This document shows, one piece after another, positions 51,949 to 64,000 of a stretch of 64,000 nt of DNA. The translations under genes and the position numbers were made by a program. How positions within the stretch are numbered: position 1 is the stretch's first letter; each line of letters starts with the position of its first letter. The notes beneath the pieces are model-generated. The model did no database searches, was not told the origin of the DNA, and saw only the letters and a program-made list of their open reading frames with translations. Source of the stretch: Basidiobolus meristosporus CBS 931.73 (lineage: Eukaryota; Basidiobolomycota; Basidiobolomycetes; Basidiobolales; Basidiobolaceae); assembly GCA_002104905.1 (NCBI GenBank), contig MCFE01000178.1:78239-142238 (forward strand). The letters run 5' to 3'.

Positions 51949-53589
51949 TTAGAGAGGATATCTAAATGGCGAATCTCCGAAATTGACCTGAACATCAACA
52001 TTCCCATCTGCACCCAACGTAGGATATACAAGATGCCACATTCCTTTGCGTGCACAACCGAGGTTAACGCCATTGCGTGTAAAGAACACACCTCCGCCCG
52101 AACAGTCATATCCACAGCCAATAACATCACCCACGCCAAACGGTAGAGCATAGTCACGGCCGCCATAACCATCATCCACATATTTCCGACCATCATCTGA
52201 GTGATAGCCCACACTGAAAATGTTCCATCCTGGGAGCCTGAAATACGGATATGGTCTGGTTGCTAGACCAACAGCAAACACAGTATCCGAGTCTGGCTTA
52301 GCCAGGATTGTAACCTCAAAATATGATATGGACCGGACACTTTCCAATGAATGGTGCCCTGCGTCTGTACATATAGAATTTTGAAGATATGTATGAGAAA
52401 TCGAGGCTGGCAGTGGGAGTCGTGTCTGGATGGAGGTATCATTGCCATTAGGATGAAAGCGTATGATAGGTGCAGCTTTGGTGCCTGGCCTTATCTTGAG
52501 TGCTACTGTAGATACGTATTCTTTGAGCATTGGGTTGATGGGCCAGTTGTTCATGGCTGTGTTTTTGAAGTATCCAAGATAGTTCAGTTCCTCTATACTG
52601 GGTGGATCAGTAGATGGGGGGAATTCCTGGCTAAACCGCAACCCAGCTTCGAATTGCTCCTCGGTAGCATTGTTTGTGGAGAAGTAATGGCTCGGCGTGG
52701 TGTCTGGCATAACTTCAGTGTATATCGGGGGTGGCAACTCTGGAGGATTGAGTGGTAACTGTTGCCCAGTGGTAGCCTCATTGCCACAGCTGTTGGAGCT
52801 GTGGGAGTTGCTGCTCTGCGGGGTTTGGGAAACCGGGCTTTTCCGGTTAAACAAAAGGTAGGTAAAAAATGCCACAAGCGCTGCTAGTATGAAAACATTA
52901 ATTGGCGACGTAGAGTCTATTACGTGGCTTGGCCGGTCTAGGATGTACTCAGTTGTTGGTCTGATTGGGGCATATTTTATACCGCCAGTTGAGTATTGGC
53001 CACTAACCCTCTGTACTTCAGCTTCACCATAAACAATCCCTTGACTGACAACGCCGCATCGCTCACCCTCGGCAGAATCGTTTTCTCCATTACAGTTGCT
53101 AGGCGTATTGGTTATAATAGAAAGGCTGGGGTTTTGGACGCCTTGGTCTCTCTTCACATCTTCACCGGAGTCAAGCTTGATACCATTGGCACTCCAGTTA
53201 TCTTCTTCACTTCCGATTAATTTGGCGCGATTAGAACCGCGGAGGTTATTTTGGGCATGGCTTTCCCCATTGCTCTTGGTAACCCAAGTACTTTTTTGTG
53301 ATTCTTTCCATGCATTGTAGATTTCAATGTAGGCTTCCTGCTTTTTTTCTCTTTGCTGGCCCCTGTTCATATTGCTGGCGCTCGATGAGCTTCCTCCGTT
53401 ATGAGTACTACCAACCTGAATTCTGAATTCAGCTTTTCTCGGATACTTGGGTGCATATGTGCTTCCTGCTTGATTGTCATTATTTTCTTTAACATTACCG
53501 GCTCTCCATGTTCTACCACCTCCACCACCTTTGGCAAATGCTCCTGGACAGACAATGCATAGCAAGAATCGGAATTGATTGAACAGCAT
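51949..53589 (-). CDS. SPRY-domain membrane protein, Ssh4/Ear1-like Rsp5 adaptor
   Basis: Probable endosome/vacuole adaptor that recruits the ubiquitin ligase Rsp5 to membrane cargo. Single exon, 546 residues. The N-terminus MLFNQFRFLLCIVCPGAFA looks like a signal peptide, followed by about 200 polar residues. A single membrane span (INVFILAALVAFFTYLLFN) lies at about 228-247. After it come a Ser/Asn-rich stretch and PPPIY at about 284-288, a PPxY motif that binds Rsp5 WW domains. Residues about 400-546 form a SPRY/B30.2-type domain: SISYFEVTIL, FAVGLATRPYPYFRLPGW, SVGYHSDDG, FGVGDVIGCGYD and FFTRNG are in the usual order. The TM-PPxY-SPRY combination is the Ssh4/Ear1 pattern; the long N-terminal luminal region is longer than I expect for that family. 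It is the last apparently intact host gene before the telomere. Confidence 0.88.
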   Translation of the reverse strand: MLFNQFRFLLCIVCPGAFAKGGGGGRTWRAGNVKENNDNQAGSTYAPKYPRKAEFRIQVGSTHNGGSSSSASNMNRGQQREKKQEAYIEIYNAWKESQKSTWVTKSNGESHAQNNLRGSNRAKLIGSEEDNWSANGIKLDSGEDVKRDQGVQNPSLSIITNTPSNCNGENDSAEGERCGVVSQGIVYGEAEVQRVSGQYSTGGIKYAPIRPTTEYILDRPSHVIDSTSPINVFILAALVAFFTYLLFNRKSPVSQTPQSSNSHSSNSCGNEATTGQQLPLNPPELPPPIYTEVMPDTTPSHYFSTNNATEEQFEAGLRFSQEFPPSTDPPSIEELNYLGYFKNTAMNNWPINPMLKEYVSTVALKIRPGTKAAPIIRFHPNGNDTSIQTRLPLPASISHTYLQNSICTDAGHHSLESVRSISYFEVTILAKPDSDTVFAVGLATRPYPYFRLPGWNIFSVGYHSDDGRKYVDDGYGGRDYALPFGVGDVIGCGYDCSGGGVFFTRNGVNLGCARKGMWHLVYPTLGADGNVDVQVNFGDSPFRYPL

Positions 53590-55154: not shown

Positions 55155-58048
55155 TTAGGGTAGGGGGGAGACAGTCACTAACAGGAGAAATATTTATTTC
55201 AGTTGAAACAAAGAAGCCAGAGCTATTGTTGTAGCTTTGATATAAGAGTGTGTGGCTGCGGGGAGTTTGTTGGTAAGTTAATAAGAAGTTATTATAGTTC
55301 TTCAGTGCTCAAAACACTGTTCAGTGGGAAGGGGGGTAGCAAGAGGGGAAAGAATGATTTGTGAACAACATTAATGAGGGGAATATGATAAGGATTGATG
55401 TTCATCATAAAGGGAGTGTGCTGCTTCAGATATTGCTGCCAAAGGTCTGTCAAGTACTTCAGGTAGGCCAGCTTGGGATTTTCTGACTGCAGAATATAGT
55501 GAGCAAACTTCTTGACTTCAGGATCTCCAAGTATAGTTCTCCAGCAGGAGCCAGGTGTAGTGTGGTGTGCTCTCTTCCAGACCTTGATCAGTGGGTTGTT
55601 GCAGTGGTGAAGTCTGAGATATAATCTGGTTCTAAGCTAGAGTAGTCTGATCTTATAAGGCATAAACCCAAAAGCACCAAGAATACCATGTCTGTAGGGG
55701 CATTCAGGTAGATGAGGCACTAAGGAGGTAATGCACCATACTGCAAGCTTGTCAAGCTTAGTGCAGTCTCTAGAAGTAAGAGAGAGAAGTGGTAAGCCAA
55801 ATTCCAGGACAGGGAAGACAAACTGCTTGAGTAGAAGGAGGCAGCTGGGAGCTGAAGTTGTAGGAGGAGTAACAGCCAATAGCTTGTGGAGTGCCTGTCT
55901 TGCAAGGATAATTCTCTTCTTCAGGTGTGCTCCTGAGTCTAGTCCAGTAGGAAGGAAAGGAAAGCCAAGATATGTAGCAGAAACCTGGGCAGGTAGAGTG
56001 GAGTTCTCCAAATTGATGGGAGAGCCCAAAGGTACTGTCTTTGCAATGAAAAGCTGGAGATTATTCTTCTGCAGATACTGGTGGATGATCTGGAAGTCTT
56101 ATTGCACATTGGAGGAGGATATTCTGATGTCATCAGCAAAGAGAGTAACCAGGCAGTCAGCTGAGAGTCTTGGGAAGTCATTCAGGAAGATGGCAAACAG
56201 AATAGGACCAAGCACAGAGCCTTGAACCACTCCATTAGGAACCAAGAATACAGCTGATTGCTCACTTGGGTGAAGAATTCTTGCTTATGGATCCAGAAAC
56301 AGAGACCTGACAAGGAGGGTGAGAGAGGTACTGGAGAAGCATTGCAACTTGGACCAAAGCAGATTTCTGTCAGCTGAATAAAAGGCCTTAGTAATATCAA
56401 ACAGAACAGAGGGATACTTGCACTGGAGAGAGTGATCTTGGCTAGGTATGACTGCATATTCCAAGGAGAGGCCAGGAACAAAGCCAAACTGTGCAGGGTG
56501 AAACTTGAGGGAGTCAGAATAGAGCTCCTGAGCAAGCAGAAGCTCAAACACCTTTCTGCAGGTGGGCAGCAGAGATATTGGCCTGTAGGAGCAAAAATCC
56601 AGGTGCTTTCCTTTACCCTTGTACAGTGGCAGAACATTTGCAAAGGACCATTCCTCAGGAGTAGAAAGCTGAGCTGAGCATTGTTGAAACATTGGAAGCA
56701 GAAGTGCATACATGGCCTTGGTACTAGTCTTCAGAAGCTCATAGGAGATTGTGTCCACACCTGGAGCAGTAGAGTTGGGAAGCCTCTTGAGCACATTATG
56801 GATTCTCCCTTGATCAAGTGCAAGTGGGATGGGCAGAGTCTTGAAGTCAGGATGAAAGCCAGGAGTTTAATACTGCTTTGTAGAGAAGAAGATGCTAGCC
56901 AGCTGTTCTGTTGAAGGTAACTTCCTGGAAGCGGGCCTCATTGCCCTGTAGAGTATTGATACTGTTCTTGTTATAGAGTTGGAAGATTGCAGAGGCAAAG
57001 AACTCATAATATGATCCCAGAGCTGAGTATGCAGAGTGTGGTGAATTGCCTTGGAGTGGTGTATGGCTGTCAGGAGGAGTTTCTCTGTTTTTGGGTTAGG
57101 GAAACTCAGGTAGCTTTGTTGCAGGGCTGAAACAATGGATTCCCATTTTCTTGAGGTAACAGCAGTAGTCTTGCATGGCAGTGAGAGGGAGGCAGAGACC
57201 AGAATCTGATGCTTCACATAGAGCCAGGCATAGTTGAGATCATCTGGCATAGAAAGTAGCAAGCTGGCAAGCTTCAAGTAGTTCCCAAAGTCTTTCTTCT
57301 GATTCTTGGTAGCTTTGTGGATGAGCACAGTGAGTTTTGGCAGCTTCTTCTTCACAACTGGTTGCATAGAAAGGGACCAGGCTGGGTGGTCAGAGGCTCT
57401 CAAGGATCCTAGCTCAGCTCCAGAGAATTGCTTAACTTCATTCACAAAGTAGAGGGCAGCAGCAGAAGGGCAGATCCAGTTAACACATCATTTCTCAGAT
57501 TGAGCACCTAGTGCTAGCAGATGGCTTTCTCTCAGGAAGTTCAGTAGGAATGTAGACCTTGGCTTCATTCTTGCAGTCAGAGTAGTCTTGTTCTGAGGAT
57601 GGGGAATGTTGAGATCTCCAAGCAAGATAACAGGTGTTGATATAGATTGCTGGTATTGCTGAACTTTCTGGCATATAACTTACACTTCCTGAAGGGCAAG
57701 ACTTTGAGGAAGATAGCAGAGCACCAGACTGATAGTTGGCAACTGGAGAGCAGCACAGTAAGGGGAGTAAAGAGGAACACAGAGCTGAGGATTATTGATG
57801 GTAGAAGAGATGAAGCAGATAGAGGAGGTATTCTTTGCTCTAGGAGTAGGAAAGCAATCTAGATTAGTCAAAAGTATAGAGGGTAGCTGGACATCAATCA
57901 AACACAGAAGGGAAAATATCAAAAGAAGTCTCTCTAGAGTTGGTCTTGATGGCTGTATGCTGTTGCAGTTAAGCAACAGAACTTCAGGTAGTCAGGCAGA
58001 GGTTGTAGCTTCTTCAGAGGCAGCATTGACAATGTGACCTGCAGAGTC
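55155..58048 (-). mobile_element. 5'-truncated telomeric LINE copy
   Basis: APE-type non-LTR retrotransposon, highly similar over its whole length to the distal copy at 60205-63768. Its 3' end (GTCTCCCCCC on the minus strand) abuts TTAGGG plus a TAGGG (55155-55168). It contains the end of ORF1, the TGA-CTA junction (57989-57994) and ORF2 broken by several stops and shifts; readable blocks are 57445-56867, 56794-56285 and 56029-55637. It keeps the Trp codon (NLLWSKLQCF) that is a stop in the distal copy. At 58048 it stops inside ORF1 and is joined directly to TTAGGG and the 3' tail of another LINE, so it is 5'-truncated. Confidence 0.9.
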
Positions 58049-58110
58049 CTTAGGGGGGAGACAGTCACCAACAGGTGAAATCTTTATTTCAGTTGAAACA
58101 AAGAAGCCAG
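58049..58110 (-). mobile_element. LINE 3'-tail stub
   Basis: About 60 bp identical in kind to the 3' terminus of the LINE (TTAGGG then GGGAGACAGTCACC...GAAACAAAGAAGCCAGC). It is joined head-to-tail to the truncated 5' end of the copy at 55155-58048. The body is missing, either by extreme 5' truncation or by the later sequence at 58111. Confidence 0.85.
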
Positions 58111-59145
58111 CACTGTAGTGGGGTGACAGTGACACCCACTGACAGATGTGCTTATTCCCCTATTTTCTACTTTCCTATATCTCTACTACACTTATTTTAG
58201 TTTTATCCCATTTGTCTTACCCAATCAGTACTATCCCATAAGCTGGTTGACTATCACACCTGCTTACCTTATTACATAAGTTACCCCTCACTTTATGTTG
58301 ATTACTAGCTATAAGTGCTTCTATATTAGGCAAGTACTTGTGCCAGTACCTGTGACATATAATCAACCCATGTCACCATCCCTACCATTTCCATACCATA
58401 TATGGCATCCCTATGTTACACAGATTTCAGAATACTGATTCCTGATTGGTTGGATGTGCTGTGCCTCTTAGAACCTTCTGGCACCTACTTAGAACATTCT
58501 TAGGTCAATCTGATGTTATTAAGATTTCTATTGATATCCAGAACCTTCTGGAACACCATGATTAGTAATCACTTAGCCAGTAAGAAAAGTATATAAGGGA
58601 GGCTATCCCTCAACAATAAATCATCATCCCTTTTATCAATATACCAACTTGTTGATTAGTGTTATCACTGCTACCTGCTGATACCTGAACTTCCAACCCC
58701 AGACCACAGGACATTCCCAGGAAACCATGCTGACAGCCAGCTGACCTTGGAGGCACTACTTGTTAGGAATACTCAGAGTAGGTATCTTTTATTATATTTG
58801 ATTCTTCCCCAAGTTTGTTCTTGTACAGGCAAAGATACTTTTCTGTCTTTGTAACTATTGACCACAGCTGCATTCTTATCAAGTCCCTGCTGGTGGAGTT
58901 TACAGTTGTTTAGACTTTGGAAGCTTTAGTACATTGTCATCTCAAAGGACGCTGAACCCAGCACATACTTTTATTAAGACGCCAACTAAGTTGGGGATTG
59001 TAGCTCAATAGTTTTCCCTTGACAAGCTTGTGGCTTTATTCCCCTTCACATTAGATTAGAGACAGAACCCATGTATTCCTAACAAGCTTTTGCCAGAGGT
59101 TATTGCACCCAGTGAACACCCCACACACAAAACACTTGAGGGCTA
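58111..59145 (+). mobile_element. LTR-like sequences within the subtelomeric array
   Basis: No coding frame. 58112 onwards begins TGTAGTGGGGTGACA, has a GTATATAAGG box at about 58588 and CAATAAATC soon after, an order typical of a plus-strand LTR promoter. Its right end is not defined. A second LTR-like unit with clear inverted ends follows at 58761-59084. Confidence 0.4.
58761..59084 (+). repeat. Probable solo LTR with 12-bp inverted ends
   Basis: 324 bp beginning TGTTAGGAATAC and ending GTATTCCTAACA, a perfect 12-bp terminal inversion (14 bp counting CT/AG outside). The TG...CA ends fit an LTR. Neighbouring 5-mers CTACT and AGCTT do not form a target duplication, so rearrangement or a non-LTR foldback element is possible. 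Confidence 0.5.
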
Positions 59146-59677
59146 GGGTTAGGCTTTTAAATACTTTATTGTGAACTTCATATAGTGCTTACTAATACAA
59201 AGAGAAAAGTACAATAGGTAGCTATACATGAACATCTGAAAGAATAGCTATTGCTGGCTCTATGATGCCTAATTAATACTATAAGGGCACTCTTGCTACT
59301 CAATATATGTTGAATGTAACAACTTTGGCCTAATTGCTGAGATTATAGCTGACAGCCTCATGATGAGTGCTTTTTGAGAATGAAACTGAAACAGTGCATC
59401 AGTATCTTTAAAACCAAAGCACTTCTCAGCTTGAGTATAGTGAAAGTAGCTATTGCATCTTGGGCACTTAGAACCCAAGCACAAAGTACTCATTCTCCAT
59501 CTGATTGCTTGCAGTGCAAAAAAGCAATCACTGATGTAGAAAGAAACATCTGCCTGGCTATTGGAATGACGACTTGTAGCTGAGATCAGTCCAATTCTGT
59601 CTCTTGATGTTGAGACTCTGGAGATATTGTTAAGCTTTCTGAGAGCCATAGCCACAGAAAGTGGTACATGTGTAGAC
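59146..59677 (-). mobile_element. Unclassified element Y in telomeric array
   Basis: Reads on the minus strand from the SINE junction (59677) to a 3' end at about 59163, where CACAATAAAG and TTTAAAAG are followed by CCTAACCCTAG, i.e. telomere-type repeats (plus strand 59150-59161). One open frame (to 59296) of about 126 codons covers most of it, without a proper start. It contains SKCPRCNSYFHYTQ, a single C-x-x-C, but no recognised domain. The orientation and telomere-repeat junction match the LINE and SINE neighbours. It may be the 3' end of a different LINE family. Confidence 0.45.
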
Positions 59678-59763
59678 TTAGGGGGGAGGAAAGTCACCAA
59701 GTGGTGAAATCTTTATTTACTTATGACAAGTATCTAAAGAAGCCAAGTTAATCTGAAGTTTTT

Positions 59764-59882
59764 CCTAGAAAGCTAGGTCTGAGAGATATCTTCCTGGTAA
59801 GCCAGGTCTGAGAGTTGAGAAGCTGAGTGATACTATATTTCCTAGTTAGCTAGGTCTGAGAGTGGTTTCCTGGAAAGCCAGG
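59764..59882. repeat. Four covarying 14-nt hairpins
   Basis: Stem-loops at 59764-59777, 59793-59806, 59841-59854 and 59869-59882. Two have stem CCTAG/CTAGG and two CCTGG/CCAGG, each with a 4-nt loop (AAAG, TAAG, TTAG, AAAG), followed by TCTGAGAG or CCTGAGAA. The A-T to G-C swap is compensated on both arms. Confidence 0.8.
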
Positions 59883-60136
59883 CCTGAGAAGTGAGAATCT
59901 GAATATATCTGAGCTAAGTTATACTGGTTTGCGGTAGCTGAATTGTGGCCGGAATGGCCAGTAGACTGGGGGAACTGAGAGGAATTTCTGGGCAATCACT
60001 GGCCAAATTTACTAGGCAAATCTGGCCAATTAGCATTTCAAGGATTTTGGCCAATCAGAGCCTTTACTTTGCCCGATGGTTGATCAAGCCATCTCCCAAT
60101 GAGCACACATCAATTTATTAATCAAATTTTGCTGGA

Positions 60137-60202
60137 TCCAGGATTTGAACCCACAACCATGGGTATGGAAGGGTTAGGGATAACCACAAGGCTAAGTGTT
60201 CT
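60137..60202 (-). other. tRNA-like Pol III promoter head of SINE
   Basis: A and B boxes with tRNA spacing (44 nt start to start). The T arm can pair partly (two G-C pairs and two G-U pairs), but acceptor and anticodon stems are decayed, so this is not a functional tRNA. It should act as an internal RNA polymerase III promoter. Confidence 0.8.
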
Positions 60203-60269
60203 TGGTTAGGGGGGGAGACAGTCACCAACAGGTGAAATCTTTATTTCAGTTGAAACAAAGAAGCCAGCG

Positions 60270-63038
60270 CTACTGTTGTAGCTTTGATACAAGAGTGTGT
60301 AGCTGAGGGGAATTTGTAGGTAAGTTAATAAGAAGTGATGATAGCTCTTCAGTGCTCAAGACACTGTTCAGTGGGAAGGGGGGTAGCAAGAGAGGTAAGA
60401 ATGACTTGTGAACAACATTAATGAGGGGAATATGATAAGGATTGATATTCATCATAAATGAAGTGTGCTGCTGCAGATATTGCTGCCAAAGGTCTGTCAA
60501 GTACTTCAGGTAGGCCAGCTTGGGTTTTTCTGACTGCAGAATAAAGTGAGCAAACTTCTTGACTTCAGGATCTCCAAGTATAGTTCTCCAGCAGGAGCCA
60601 GGTGTTGTGTGGTGTGTTCTCTTCCAGGCCTTAATCAGTGGGTTGTTGCAGTTGTGAAGTCTGAGGTATAATCTGGTTCTAAGGTAGAGAAGTCTGATCT
60701 TATAGGGCATAAACCCAAAAGCACCAAGAATAGCATGTCTGTAGGGGCATTCAGGCAAATGAGGCACCAAGGAGGTAATGCACCATACTGCAAACTTGTC
60801 AAGCTTAGTGCAGTCTCTAGAAGTAAGAGAGAGAAGTGGTAAGCCAAATTCCAGGACAGGGAAGACAAACTGCTTGAGTAGAAGGAGGCAGCTGGGAGCT
60901 GAAGTTGTAGGAGGAGTAACAGCCAACAGCTTGTGGAGTGCCTGTCTTGCAAGGATAATTCTCTTCTTCAGGTGTGCTCCAGAGTCTAGTCCAGTAGGAA
61001 GGAAAGGAAAGCCAAGATATGTAGCAGAAACCTGAGCAGGTAGAGTGGAGTTCTCCAAGATGATGGGAGAGCCCAAAGGTACTGTCTTTGCAATGGAAAG
61101 CTGGAGATTATTCTTCTGCAGATACTGGTGGATGGTCTGGGAGTCTTGTTGCACATTGGAGGAGGATATTCTGATGTCATCAGCAAAGAGAGTAACCAGG
61201 CAGTCAGCTGAGAGTCTTGGGAAGTCATTCAGGAAGATGGCAAACAGTATAGGACCAAGCACAGAGCCTTGAACCACTCCATTAGGAACTGAGAACACAG
61301 CTGATTGCTCACTTGGGTGCAGAATTCTTGCTTGTGGATCCAGAAACAGAGACCTGATAAGGAGGGTGAGAGAGGTACTGGAGAAGCATTGCAACTTGGA
61401 CTAAAGCAGATTTCTGTCAACTGAATCAAAGGCCTTAGTAATATCAAACAGAACAGAGGGATACTTGCACTGGAGAGAGTGATCTTGGCTAAGTATGACT
61501 GCATATTCCAAGGAGAGGCCAGGAACAAAGCCAAACTGTGCAGGATGAAACTTGAGGGAGTCAGAGTAGAGCTCCTGAGCAAGCAGAAGCTCAAACACCT
61601 TTCTGCAGGTGGGCAGCAGAGATATTGGCCTGTAGGAGCTAGGATCCAAGTGCTTTCCTTTACCCTTATACAGTGGCAGAACATTTGCAAAGGACCATTC
61701 CTCAGGAGTAGAAAGCTGGGCTGAGCATTGCTGAAACAGTGGAAGCAGAAGTGCAGACATGGCCTTGGTACTAGTCTTCAGAAGCTCATAGGAGATTGTG
61801 TCCACACCTGGAGCAGTAGAGTTGGGAAGCCTCTTGAGCACATTATGGATTCTCCTTTGATCAAGTGCAATTGGGATGGGCAGAGTCTTGAAGTCAGGAT
61901 GAAAGCCAGGAGTTGAGTACTGCTTTGTAGAGAAGAAGATGTTAGCCAGCTGTTCTGTTGAAGGTAACTTCCTGGAAGAGGGCCTCATTGCTCTGTAGAG
62001 TCTTGATACTGTTCTTGTTATAGAGTTGGAAGATTGCAGAGGCAAAGAACTCATAATATGATCCCAGAGCTGAGTATGCAGAGTGTGGTGAATTGCCTTG
62101 GAGTGGTGTATTGCTGTCAGGAGGAGTTTCTCTGTTTTTGGGTTAGGGAAACTCAGGTAGCTTTGTTGCAGGGCTGAAACAATGGATTCCCATTTTCTTG
62201 AGGTAACAGCAGTAGTCTTGCATGGCAGTGAGAGGGAGGCAGACACCAGAATCAGATGCTTCACAAAGAGCCAGGCATAGTTGAGATCATCTGGCAGAGA
62301 AAGTAGCAAACTGGCAAGCTTCAAGTAGTTCCCAAAGTCTTTCTTCTGATTCTTGGTAGCTTTGTGGGTGAGCACAGTAAGTTTTGGCAGCTTCTTCTTC
62401 ACAGCTGGTTGCATAGAAAGGGACCAGGCTGGGTGGTCAGAGGCTCTCAAGGATCCTAGCTCAGCTCCAGAGAATTGCTTCACTTCATTCACAAAGTAGA
62501 GGGCAGCAGCAGAAGGGCAGATCCAGTCAACACATCTTTTCTCAGATTGAGCACCCAGTGCTAGCAGATGGCTTTCTCTCAGGAAGTTCAGTAGGAATGT
62601 AGACCTTGGCTTCATTCTTGCAGTCAGAGTAGTCTTGTTCTCAGGATGGGGAATGTTGAGATCTCCAAGCAAGATAACAGGTGTTGATATAGATTGCTGG
62701 TATTGCTGAACTTTCTGGCAGATAACTTGCACTTCCTGAAGGGCAAGACTTGGAGGCAGATAGCAGAGCACCAGACTGATAGTTGGCAACTGGAGAGCAG
62801 CACAGTAAGGGGAGTAAAGAGGAACACAGAGCTGAGGAGTATTGATGGTAGAAGAGATGAAGCAGATGGAGGAGGTATTCTTTGTTCTAGGAGTAGAAAA
62901 GTAATATAGATTAGTCAAAAGTATAGAGGGTAGCTGGACATCAATCAAACACAGGAGGGAAAATCTTGAAAGAAGTCTCTCTAGAGTTGGTCTTGATGGC
63001 TGTATGCTGTTGCAGTTAAGCAACAGAACTTCAGGTAG
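60270..63038 (-). pseudogene. LINE ORF2: APE endonuclease and reverse transcriptase
   Basis: 923 codons in one frame, broken only by TAG at 61401-61403 where the sister copy has TGG. The N-terminal AP-type endonuclease shows LNCNS, LLGDLNIPHP, VDWICPS and ASDHPAW in order; the usual Gln-Glu motif near residue 30 reads DVQLPS, so the metal-binding Glu appears replaced. The RT domain has LPLYKGKG, SYRPISLLPT, FDITKAFDSVDR (motif A), NGVVQGSVLGPILF (motif B) and FADDIRIS (motif C), followed by a thumb and a C-terminal region without RNase H or a clear zinc knuckle. It would nick or use DNA ends as primer and copy the element RNA. The single stop makes this copy probably inactive. Confidence 0.92.
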
Positions 63039-63041
63039 TCA
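63036..63041 (-). promoter_or_regulatory. TGA-CTA leaky-stop context between ORF1 and ORF2
   Basis: The ORF1 stop TGA (63041-63039) is followed by CTA and then by an open frame in the same phase that leads into the endonuclease domain. UGA-CUA is an established readthrough-promoting context in eukaryotes. The same bases occur at 57994-57989 in the second copy. No ATG lies between the stop and the endonuclease Asn motif. Confidence 0.6.
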
Positions 63042-63768
63042 GGCAGAGGTTGTAGCTTCTTCAGAGGCAGCATTGACAATGTGACCTGCAGAGTCCCAGA
63101 GCTCTTCAAATGGTGCATCACTTAAGTCAGCAAGGAGGGAAATGGCATGATTCTTGAGGAAGTATGCCACATCATAGGAGGGGGCTTGTCTCTTGATGGC
63201 AGCAAAGAAAGACAGAATGGCAACATGGGCTGGAGGCTTGTTGAACAGTAGAGAGTCAGAGGATTCAGATTCTTCAGGCACTATCTTGAAGTCAGTTTTC
63301 AGCCAGTTAAGGTTCTTCTCCACAAAGACAACAAATGGGTCAGCAATGTTTTGGTCTAGGATAACCTCCAGAATCTTCCCTTTTCTCCAGGCCAGGTTGA
63401 CAATTCTTGAGAGCTGAATATTGCATGCCTTGAGTGCTTTCCTGATGTTTGAAATGGGAGTCCAGGGAACTTGCTTCAAGTACACACAGTCCAGGTAGAA
63501 GCTGGTGGTAGGTTTGCTGGGGGCTTGTAAGTCCTTCTGTGTTGCAATGGAGCTGCAGTAGTCAGATTGGAGTCCACATAATCAGTAGAGGGTTTTCTTG
63601 ATGTGTCTTGCTGAATGGTACTGGAGCTGGATGTGTTGATAATTCTTGCTAGAACCTTGCCTGCATAAGTCTGAGGTATAGCTGAGGTGACTGTAGAGGT
63701 GGTGGCAGCTGGTGCAGGTGGAGAGGCAGAGACTGAAGCAGGAACTGAGGTCACCTGGGAGAAGGCAG
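63042..63768 (-). pseudogene. LINE ORF1 (5'-truncated, one apparent frameshift)
   Basis: ORF1 of the distal LINE, presumably an RNA-binding chaperone protein of the element. The first part (63754-63500) is Ser/Thr/Pro-rich (SASPPAPAATTSTVTS). Around 63497 the sense shifts by one base to a frame beginning FYLDCVYLKQVPWTPIS and running to 63042. That part is helical and basic-acidic mixed (VRNIRKAL-like; AFEELWD-like elements) with no zinc knuckle. The frame is open into the telomere repeats, so the natural start is lost. Whether the shift is mutation or programmed cannot be judged because the second copy lacks the region. Confidence 0.65.
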
Positions 63769-64000
63769 TTAGGGTTAGGGTTAGGGTTAGGGTTAGGGTT
63801 AGGGTTAGGGTTAGGGTTAGGGTTAGGGTTAGGGTTAGGGTTAGGGTTAGGGTTAGGGTTAGGGTTAGGGTTAGGGTTAGGGTTAGGGTTAGGGTTAGGG
63901 TTAGGGTTAGGGTTAGGGTTAGGGTTAGGGTTAGGGTTAGGGTTAGGGTTAGGGTTAGGGTTAGGGTTAGGGTTAGGGTTAGGGTTAGGGTTAGGTTAGG
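63769..64000 (+). repeat. Telomere, (TTAGGG)n
   Basis: About 38 tandem TTAGGG units without interruption except one TTAGG near the very end (about 63991-63995). The G-rich strand reads towards the right end, so this is the right terminus of the chromosome. Confidence 0.98.

Follow-up and report, generated by a model that had tools for sequence, protein, structure and literature searches.

Outward-facing LINEs and a SINE stacked on telomeric repeats at a Basidiobolus meristosporus contig end: a candidate case of end-primed retrotransposition

The window, that is the whole 64,000-nucleotide stretch of Basidiobolus meristosporus DNA that was analysed, ends where its contig ends, in a terminal tract of 39 TTAGGG units. 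Read from the tip inward, this tract is followed by a LINE (LINE1a copy C), a SINE, part of a second LINE (LINE2), a LINE1a stub (copy B) and a further LINE1a copy (copy A), and the sequence places all LINEs and the SINE on the minus strand with their 5' ends pointing outward. The features are:

55155..55162, plus strand: telomere-like junction at the array base, TTAGGGTAGGGGGGAGAC, with TTAGGGTA followed by the G-run of the copy A 3' end (direct reading)
55163..58049, minus strand: LINE1a copy A, 5'-truncated; a gap-free alignment with copy C over 2887 bp shows 96.4% identity
58050..58055, plus strand: TTAGGG at the copy A/copy B junction, TTAGGGGGGAGAC (direct reading)
58053..58113, minus strand: LINE1a copy B, a 3' stub of ~60 bp, interrupted by a dispersed repeat
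58114..59140, no strand assigned: dispersed repeat within copy B (genome copies in both orientations; ends compared with loci L140 and L141)
59141..59153, plus strand: telomere-like junction before LINE2, GGCTAGGGTTAGG then CTTTTAAATAC on the LINE2 side
59154..59677, minus strand: LINE2, a second LINE represented by its 3' part (RT ORF and PF00078 of the longer copy L132; tree)
59678..59683, plus strand: TTAGGG at the LINE2/SINE junction, TTAGGGGGGAGGAAAG (direct reading)
59681..60205, minus strand: SINE, which ends 3' in the same hairpin and C-rich tail as LINE1 (499 genome matches to its 3' end; 3' end fold)
60206..60211, plus strand: TTAGGG at the SINE/copy C junction, TTAGGGGGGGAGAC (direct reading)
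60209..63767, minus strand: LINE1a copy C, the outermost element, truncated at the 5' side within ORF1 and adjoining the terminal TTAGGG tract
60270..61394, minus strand: predicted C-terminal part of LINE1a ORF2, with the second half of the RT and the C-terminal region (PF00078, E 1.3e-11)
61401..63023, minus strand: predicted N-terminal part of LINE1a ORF2, with an APE-like endonuclease and the first half of the RT (PF00078, 29.8 bits)
63039..63485, minus strand: C-terminal part of LINE1a ORF1 (similar to ORF1 of an ORF1-only element in L176)
63768..64000, plus strand: terminal tract of 39 TTAGGG units, reaching the contig end (unit count)

Allowing at most one mismatch, TTAGGGTTAGGG has 42 matches in the window against a chance expectation of 0.21, and 37 of these lie inside the terminal tract. 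Direct reading bears out the TTAGGG-type sequence that the sequence-only reading had placed at the 3' junctions (55155, 58050, 59141-59153, 59678 and 60206), as well as the run of the outermost LINE into the terminal repeats. Its claim that every junction reads TTAGGG/GGGAGAC fails at LINE2, where TTAGG/CTTTTA stands; the SINE 3' end reads GGGAGGAAAG. The single minus-strand orientation it had reported applies to the LINEs and the SINE and does not extend to 58114-59140, while the LINE stub exists at a much smaller size, the remainder up to 59140 being a dispersed repeat. A first look across the genome returned 2379 candidates for this repeat, and the 40 scored occur in both orientations, ruling it out as a telomeric element; the window copy breaks off ~47 bp before reaching the right end present in L140 and L141. 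It is thus a dispersed repeat inserted in stub B, outside the telomeric element system.

The placement of these elements across the genome was examined with near-identical copies, which are therefore young, and all end-location and junction counts refer to such copies. Among the first 100 exact LINE1a 3' ends, every one on contigs longer than 100 kb (38/38) lies at most 18.3 kb from the contig end that it faces. Against expectations for random place and strand, copies at most 20 kb away from the end they face number 32 of 34 for LINE1a (5.8 expected; best 40 of a DNA search), 27 of 27 for the SINE (3.1 expected) and 17 of 18 for LINE1b (2.9 expected), all on contigs longer than 50 kb, and 7 of 8 for LINE2 on contigs longer than 20 kb (2.6 expected). 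Two LINE1a copies among the best 40 are internal (C558 and C726), and both have TTAGGG at their 3' junctions.

Junctions were sampled as the first 100 exact LINE1a 3' ends among 958 genome matches. T(T)A and a G-run directly precede the element in 95 of them (TTA in 85, TA in 10); of the other five, four appear telomere-like by eye and one (L052) is devoid of telomeric sequence. The junctions hold one telomeric unit in 64 cases, two in 23, three to seven in 8 and none in 5, with a median of one. All 51 proximal neighbours that could be identified have the same orientation as the element that follows them. Where the neighbour is LINE1a (n=23), 23 different endpoints spread over 2.7 kb, though four pairs are only 2-9 bp apart, and SINE neighbours share the same end nucleotide in 10 of 22 cases. 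LINE2 has a telomere-like stretch before its 3' end in 8 of 8 loci. An independent sample of 20 ends, chosen solely for a long telomere tract (198-297 bp, median 218), shows outward-facing elements within 1.1 kb in 16: LINE1a, LINE1b or the SINE reaches the tract in 12, four more have outward-facing elements, among them an ORF1-bearing type, and the array families are absent from the other four. Since near-identical copies are end-located, outward-facing and joined to telomeric sequence, the proposal of a telomere-targeted LINE system is supported; copies of the opposite kind, mostly internal, in both orientations and without TTAGGG, were not what this sample contained. The shared orientation of neighbours and the many truncation points likewise agree with the sequential terminal addition proposed earlier.

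On its predicted proteins, LINE1 is a non-LTR retrotransposon with an RT domain, frequent 5' truncation (LINE1a has many truncation points) and an ORF1 followed by an ORF2 with an N-terminal APE-like domain. Every LINE ORF2 protein scanned passes the PF00078 cut-off, the window's N-terminal piece only just (cut-off 29.6); in that piece PF14529 stays under cut-off (E 2e-4). ORF2 of copy C is interrupted into two ORFs. Its ORF1 stretch is contained in a longer ORF at L156 and has no Pfam match; compared with ORF1 from the ORF1-only element, it shows 34% identity (E 2e-16). LINE1b at L153 has an ORF1 of at least 428 aa, which extends past the locus boundary, and an uninterrupted ORF2 of 949 aa. 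A TAG lies inside most matches to P0125; as six loci have an open ORF2 of 949 aa, this is probably an ordinary ORF2 stop, and a reading as recoding was rejected.

The APE Pfam models match weakly, at cut-off in P0125 and under it in P0121, P0122, P0170, P0171 and P0173. The GD-N and SDH motifs are kept in the LINE1 proteins, and the ET motif is replaced by DV (IDV in the window), so that Asp replaces the catalytic Glu in every LINE1 sequence examined that holds the site (window, P0121, P0122, L153, L154-L158). Because much of the APE domain is retained and is only moderately less conserved than the RT (55% versus 67% for LINE1b against P0125), a nicking role may persist. No REL endonuclease emerged from Pfam scans, whose models did not include REL, and the N-termini are APE-like instead. 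Among solved structures L1 ORF2p outscores R2 as a match. LINE1 forms a long separate clade (100/100 support) with weak matches to aphid LINEs.

The array member previously left unclassified can now be assigned to LINE2. The longer copy L132 has an RT ORF of 621 aa (PF00078, E 9.8e-28), ruling out the idea of a retrocopied cellular mRNA at 59141-59679, suggested by an AATAAA-like end; the window copy includes the ORF2 C-terminal end with a CPRC..H..C stretch. The canonical ET motif is kept in three database relatives of LINE2. In the tree, LINE1 and the clade containing LINE2 fall on one side against insect sequences (99/94), and a shared end-targeting ancestor of the two is therefore possible.

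LINE1a, LINE1b, the SINE and the ORF1-bearing elements, one of them ORF1-only, have in common a 3' hairpin and C-rich tail, which we found in 13 types among the loci examined. The hairpin is predicted to form in RNA as UCACC-loop-GGUGA, with fold z-scores of the 3' end from -2.4 to -3.7. Across the alignment 96.4% of cells pair; the hairpin stem is invariant, and in the upstream helix just one pair changes on both sides, with 54 of 500 shuffles reaching the score, so that covariation is weak. By eye the SINE resembles a tRNA at its 5' end, but ARAGORN predicts none. The genome also contains telomerase RBD exons that score over the Pfam cut-off, one piece with a TAG, alongside TTAGGG caps; judged by these, the elements are not a replacement for telomerase.

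Based on these observations we propose, with a probability of roughly 0.7, that the arrays arose by end-primed retrotransposition, with very short chromosome ends as the target and telomerase later re-capping them; each element was apparently reverse-transcribed from its RNA at the tip before telomere repeats were added. RNAs of LINE1a, LINE1b, the SINE and the ORF1-bearing elements would end in the hairpin and C-rich tail, which would pair with the terminal GGG where a TTAGGG end is worn down to about one repeat; a broken end offering a TAG or TTAG seed might also serve as primer. The 3' OH of the chromosome end would prime the LINE1 reverse transcriptase, which the SINE and ORF1-only elements would presumably borrow, and the element would thereby come to lie with its 5' end towards the tip and its 3' end on the inner side. 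Synthesis would stop at the RNA 5' end, as in full-length SINEs, or sooner, as in 5'-truncated LINEs; telomerase would then add TTAGGG, on which the next element could prime. LINE2, of the other lineage, may use the same route with an RNA end pairing with TTAGG. Against this proposal stand the internal C558 and C726, the L052 junction, the four telomere-selected ends without these families, the weak covariation and the retained APE domain, and the short interstitial tracts could also have shrunk after insertion.

Part of the same evidence would fit insertion directed by an endonuclease, in which APE nicks TTAGGG arrays, the element goes in by target-primed reverse transcription and the repeats distal to it are kept as the new cap. 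The APE-like domain, the ET motif in the LINE2 relatives and the reported specificity of TRAS/SART APE nucleases for telomeric repeats (PMC4700185, PMC5537684) speak for it, but random insertion into tracts of ~33-49 units should leave many more proximal units than the median of one, the catalytic Glu is Asp in LINE1, and 5' truncation is common here while silkworm telomeres are reported to carry full-length elements only (PMC4700185); we regard this as unlikely. Passive spread, with a few old insertions copied between ends by break-induced replication or subtelomere exchange that keeps orientation and location, appears more improbable still. Subtelomeric repeats are indeed common to different ends (sub55kb matches), LINE2 copies L132, L133 and L135 have 98.7-99.6% identity across 2025 bp, and some LINE1a endpoints are a few bases apart. 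Exchange alone is nevertheless insufficient, since LINE1a neighbour endpoints cover 2.7 kb and the LINE2 3' junctions in 8 loci adjoin proximal sequences that differ from one another (by-eye comparison of 90 bp), the sole similarities in ~0.6 kb flanks being out of register with the junction. Chimeric or collapsed contig ends might produce arrays artificially, and many arrays do lie on short contigs of 10-20 kb, with telomere tracts almost all on the plus strand (7428 vs 81; 459 vs 0), an unexplained feature of the assembly. Yet 100 junctions follow a consistent logic in many different proximal sequences, the pattern recurs on contigs of 160-345 kb and four element types agree, which makes an artefact very improbable.

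Telomere-capping elements are known from flies and a few fungi; what is new here is a different type of enzyme, APE-class LINEs in a fungus. The MoTeR parallel drawn by the sequence-only reading is valid for geometry and not for membership. MoTeR1 and MoTeR2 of Magnaporthe oryzae likewise form head-to-tail arrays with 5' ends outward, with TTAGGG tracts from half a unit to more than 20 between elements and de novo telomeres on short seeds, and MoTeR2 probably uses the MoTeR1 RT; MoTeR1 differs in its SLACS/CRE-like RT, REL endonuclease and 5' TTCGGG(TTTGGG)n run (all as described in PMC7367193). In the Basidiobolus array the RT follows an APE-like domain at the N-terminus instead, and there are a SINE as partner and LINEs of a second lineage. 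FoTeR of Fusarium oxysporum is described as confined to ends, 5' outward, with TAACCC at its 3' side and junctions of ~3-8 units, against mostly one in Basidiobolus (PMC12857005). Full-length Cnl1 copies of Cryptococcus are all at chromosome ends in the isolates studied, with additional insertions elsewhere (FRR1) (PMC12810828). FoTeR and Cnl1 are grouped with MoTeR in a CRE/R2-type clade (PMC12857005, PMC12810828), so that, going by their published descriptions, the fungal telomeric LINEs in the literature examined make up one CRE/R2-type group, whereas the Basidiobolus LINEs appear to be APE-type, and LINE1b has two ORFs in place of their single one.

Among animals, HeT-A, TART and TAHRE of Drosophila form single-orientation head-to-tail arrays at ends (PMC5537684), an arrangement that near-identical Basidiobolus copies share apart from the two internal exceptions. 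TART and TAHRE have APE and RT, and HeT-A encodes no RT, which compares with the ORF1-only element; nick-free end addition has been proposed there, yet the TART endonuclease is under selection (PMC5537684). Drosophila has no telomerase and its elements end in oligo(A), as against telomerase exons, TTAGGG caps and a C-rich end in Basidiobolus, and the literature examined mentions no SINE partner for them. TRAS/SART of Bombyx are also APE-type LINEs at telomeric repeats, but insert within the repeats by endonuclease specificity and at full length (PMC4700185, PMC5537684); the Basidiobolus elements are often truncated and lie at ends with about one repeat, which argues against within-repeat insertion. 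Endonuclease-deficient Penelope-like elements (Athena of rotifers) are described as priming on exposed ends, with truncated 5' ends followed by telomeric repeats, and are reported from fungi too (PMC3846280); they have a Penelope-type RT and no endonuclease, against LINE RTs with an APE-like domain here. Titles and abstract beginnings of the literature on Basidiobolus telomeres revealed nothing on such elements, and no title on telomeric SINEs concerned fungi.

That APE-class LINEs occur together with a SINE and an ORF1-only element at chromosome ends of a fungus with telomerase exons and TTAGGG caps suggests that LINE end targeting arose more than once in fungi. A more tentative joint reading, which we hold to be possible though less than even, is that this early-branching, telomerase-positive fungus independently evolved a Drosophila-like end-extending guild: autonomous APE-class LINEs, with a conserved Glu-to-Asp change in an endonuclease for which nicking may have become dispensable, a HeT-A-like ORF1-only element, a SINE borrowing the 3' hairpin and C-tail, and a further, distantly related LINE lineage that has converged on this end. 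They would act mainly at ends of about one repeat, as emergency repair of lost telomeres before telomerase re-caps them. The one-repeat junctions raise the question of whether retroelements act on uncapped ends ahead of telomerase, and the two distant LINE lineages, each with a 3' end matching the G-strand, make pairing of the RNA tail with the overhang directly testable.

The window's right edge is the end of contig C400, where 39 TTAGGG units (99% matching) cap an array of LINEs, of the LINE1a family and of a second lineage, LINE2, together with a SINE. All of them lie on the minus strand, and their 5' ends thus point to the telomere, an orientation here called outward.

Array at the right end of the window, from the base outward
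Base of the array, innermost, plus-strand reading: subtelomeric sequence, then TTAGGGTA
55163-58049, minus strand: LINE1a copy A, with TTAGGG on its outer side
About 60 bp, minus strand, outside copy A and its TTAGGG: LINE1a stub B
58114-59140, within stub B: a dispersed repeat, itself broken
Between the dispersed repeat and LINE2, plus-strand reading: GGCTAGGGTTAGG
59154-59677, minus strand: LINE2, with TTAGGG on its outer side
59681-60205, minus strand: SINE, with TTAGGG on its outer side
60209-63767, minus strand: LINE1a copy C, the outermost element, adjoining the telomere

The dispersed repeat ends about 47 bp short of the right end known from two of its other loci (L140 and L141), and outside this break lies telomere-like sequence followed by LINE2. 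The order of the elements reads as a probable history of successive additions. The repeat is present in high copy number. Inverted ends were seen by eye in L140 and L141 (GCGCTGTAGTGG / CCACCACAGCGC), not in a further locus, L142, and the scored copies of the repeat are about 96% identical to that of the window. An ORF for a SPRY-domain protein is present at 51949-53589 on the minus strand, its best named matches coming from early-diverging fungi at 34-56% identity over part of its length.

The genome searched comprises 89 Mb in 1311 contigs. The 3' end of LINE1a (27 bases, up to 3 mismatches) gave 958 matches, 865 forward and 93 reverse, and the reversed control of the same 27 bases gave none. 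Junctions were analyzed at 100 places among the matches listed, all exact and distributed over 60 contigs, a sample that favours young, near-identical copies and in which the context of short contigs is uncertain. The sequence-only reading had proposed a telomere-targeted LINE system, with copies facing the telomere and TTAGGG at their 3' boundaries, and these exact copies support it: on contigs longer than 100 kb none of the 38 is more than 18,238 bases from the end that it faces, and 95 of the 100 junctions have TTA (85) or TA (10) immediately before the G-run. The nearer contig end is faced at 90 of the 100 places, the remaining 10 all being on contigs shorter than 20 kb. To the eye, four of the remaining five junctions still resemble telomere, with TTAAGGG or with a telomeric stretch set back by a few bases; L052 is the exception. 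Telomere-like units per junction number none in 5 cases, one in 64, two in 23 and three to seven in 8. The G-run is 4-12 nucleotides long, a spread that may partly stem from homopolymer errors in the assembly. As elements without TTA, or with TA only, still begin in the G-run, we infer that the junction TTA derives from the chromosome end rather than from the element RNA.

Among the best 40 LINE1a copies two are internal, 97 kb into the 218 kb of contig C558 and 59 kb into the 70 kb of C726, and both retain TTAGGG at the 3' junction (L119, L120) and array-type neighbours. They belong to internal arrays of LINE1a and SINE with TTAGGG junctions (C726 50000-60100 and C558 88500-98800; loci L159, L120, L160 and L119), which may be internalised or fused ends, or contig joins.

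The same 100 LINE1a junctions were surveyed for neighbours within 150 bp on the proximal side, i.e. away from the telomere, against a small element library. The identified element neighbours were 23 copies of LINE1a, 22 SINEs and 6 copies of the other LINE1 family, LINE1b, and all 51 share the orientation of the LINE1a copy; the others were 4 subtelomeric repeats, two in each direction, and 45 sequences without a library match. No two of the 23 LINE1a neighbours share a BLAST endpoint, and the endpoints range over nucleotides 107-2772, although in four pairs they are only 2-9 bp apart and the members of a pair may be duplicates of a single event. Of the 22 SINE neighbours, ten share one endpoint, which is the 5' end of the full-length element.

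Comparable placement was recovered for the other families. The 3' end of LINE1b (34 bases including TTAGGG, up to 3 mismatches) has 218 genome matches, and its ORF2 of 949 aa is unbroken in six loci; 25 of the 100 places listed are on a contig of known length, and on such contigs longer than 50 kb 17 of 18 are at most 20 kb from the end they face, the eighteenth at 21.8 kb. With at most 2 mismatches allowed, the SINE 3' end matches 499 times, and among the 100 places listed the 27 on contigs of known length above 50 kb all fall within 20 kb of the end they face. LINE2 has 8 matches, seven within that distance and the eighth at 20.8 kb, and in all 8 loci CTTTT follows TTAGG, CTAGG or TTAGA. The dispersed repeat served as a weak control: of its 5 places on contigs of known length one, the window's own, is no more than 20 kb from the end it faces, where 1.1 would be expected. 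LINE1a, LINE1b, the SINE and the ORF1-bearing families share an RNA-sense 3' end of the form GGCUUCUUU...AAUAAAGAUUUCACC-loop-GGUGA, with small variants, followed by a tail of at least CCCC. In the loci collected we found 13 types of this hairpin-plus-tail at 239 places (overlapping loci counted repeatedly), using a pattern that fixed the TCACC/GGTGA stem and let only loop and flanks vary; the loops differ in length and sequence. Fold z-scores for four representatives are -3.6, -3.7, -2.4 and -3.7, and across six the stem is invariant and covariation in the upstream helix weak.

A query of 33 perfect TTAGGG units gave 459 plus-strand matches and none on the minus strand, and the 100 places listed fall on 24 contigs, at 20 of which the 1.1 kb beneath the tract was taken. 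At these 20 ends, chosen for long tracts, the tract up to the contig end is 198-297 bp long, with a median of 218. LINE1a, LINE1b or the SINE abuts it in 12, and every match to these three listed for the 20 ends is outward. A further 4 ends (L162, L171, L176, L179) have outward elements, including ORF1-bearing ones with the same type of 3' end. One of these is an ORF1-only, HeT-A-like element beneath the telomere (L176 57-1102, L179 145-1102, L162 903-1102). In L176 its 242-aa ORF, starting from ATG, adjoins the 3' end, with no space for an ORF2 between them, and aligns with LINE1a ORF1 at 34% identity over 137 residues (E 2e-16). A further family with an ORF1, seen in L171 (206-1102), has a 3' tail that is a variant (GATGATCATCCCC or close to it), and L011 and L016 have similar 3' ends. 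In the 1.1 kb of the last four ends (L164, L173, L174, L177) none of the LINE1a, LINE1b, SINE or ORF1-bearing families was found; they hold a subtelomeric repeat, a tRNA cluster, an ORF that by eye resembles LTR-element protease/RT, and an 86-bp satellite. In L173 (end of C249) the telomere apparently starts within the tRNA-Lys gene of a four-tRNA-gene cluster, probably because telomerase healed a break there, and in L177 (end of C327) the tandem satellite, with TTAGGG-like stretches, lies immediately beneath the telomere. The plus-strand excess of telomere tracts also holds for four units (7428 versus 81 genome-wide); contigs seem to be oriented with the telomere to the right, a bias that is unexplained. 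Many short contigs (about 10-20 kb, e.g. C21-C343) carry a terminal telomere tract and array elements, and could represent alternative forms of chromosome ends among the nuclei that were sequenced.

Two pieces at C880:173109-173423 score above the cut-off for the telomerase domain PF12009, which had no match in 14 control genomes; one of the pieces has an internal TAG, perhaps within an intron. These pieces and the terminal TTAGGG tracts argue that telomerase works in this genome and that the elements are no substitute for it. The explanation that we favour is that element RNA would prime on very short or broken ends, which telomerase would then re-cap; the main rival is endonuclease-directed insertion inside TTAGGG arrays. 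What appears to discriminate most strongly between the two is the proximal tract, mostly one unit as against about 33-49 units in the terminal tracts of ends chosen for their length, since insertion inside tracts of that size should leave more repeats proximally. The endonuclease itself also bears on the choice. The glutamate of the ET motif is catalytic in APE enzymes, and in the LINE1 endonuclease D replaces it in the compared proteins P0121 and P0122, in loci L153 and L154-L158 and in the window ORF (IDVQ); ET is kept in the endonucleases of three relatives of LINE2. The LINE1 endonuclease is somewhat less conserved than the RT, and it is therefore possible that it no longer nicks.

Priming on ends with re-capping of truncated 5' ends has a parallel in endonuclease-deficient Penelope-like elements, which are reported from fungi too (PMC3846280). 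In MoTeR (PMC7367193) and FoTeR (PMC12857005) the array geometry and the TTAGGG between elements are like those described here, but the type of enzyme differs. The HeT-A/TART/TAHRE system (PMC5537684) is alike in composition, with a full LINE and an RT-less partner; telomerase is absent there, unlike here. Database relatives of LINE1 are five sequences at 47-84% identity, followed by weak matches, some of them from aphids. A 33-row RT tree shows LINE1 as a clade (100/100) on a long branch, and in it LINE2 groups with Smittium proteins (99/99) inside a 13-row clade (100/100). The tree, rooted for drawing only, places LINE1 and this 13-row clade together against the insect-containing clade (99/94), and the two are thus distant relatives rather than strangers, for which a single origin of end targeting is possible.
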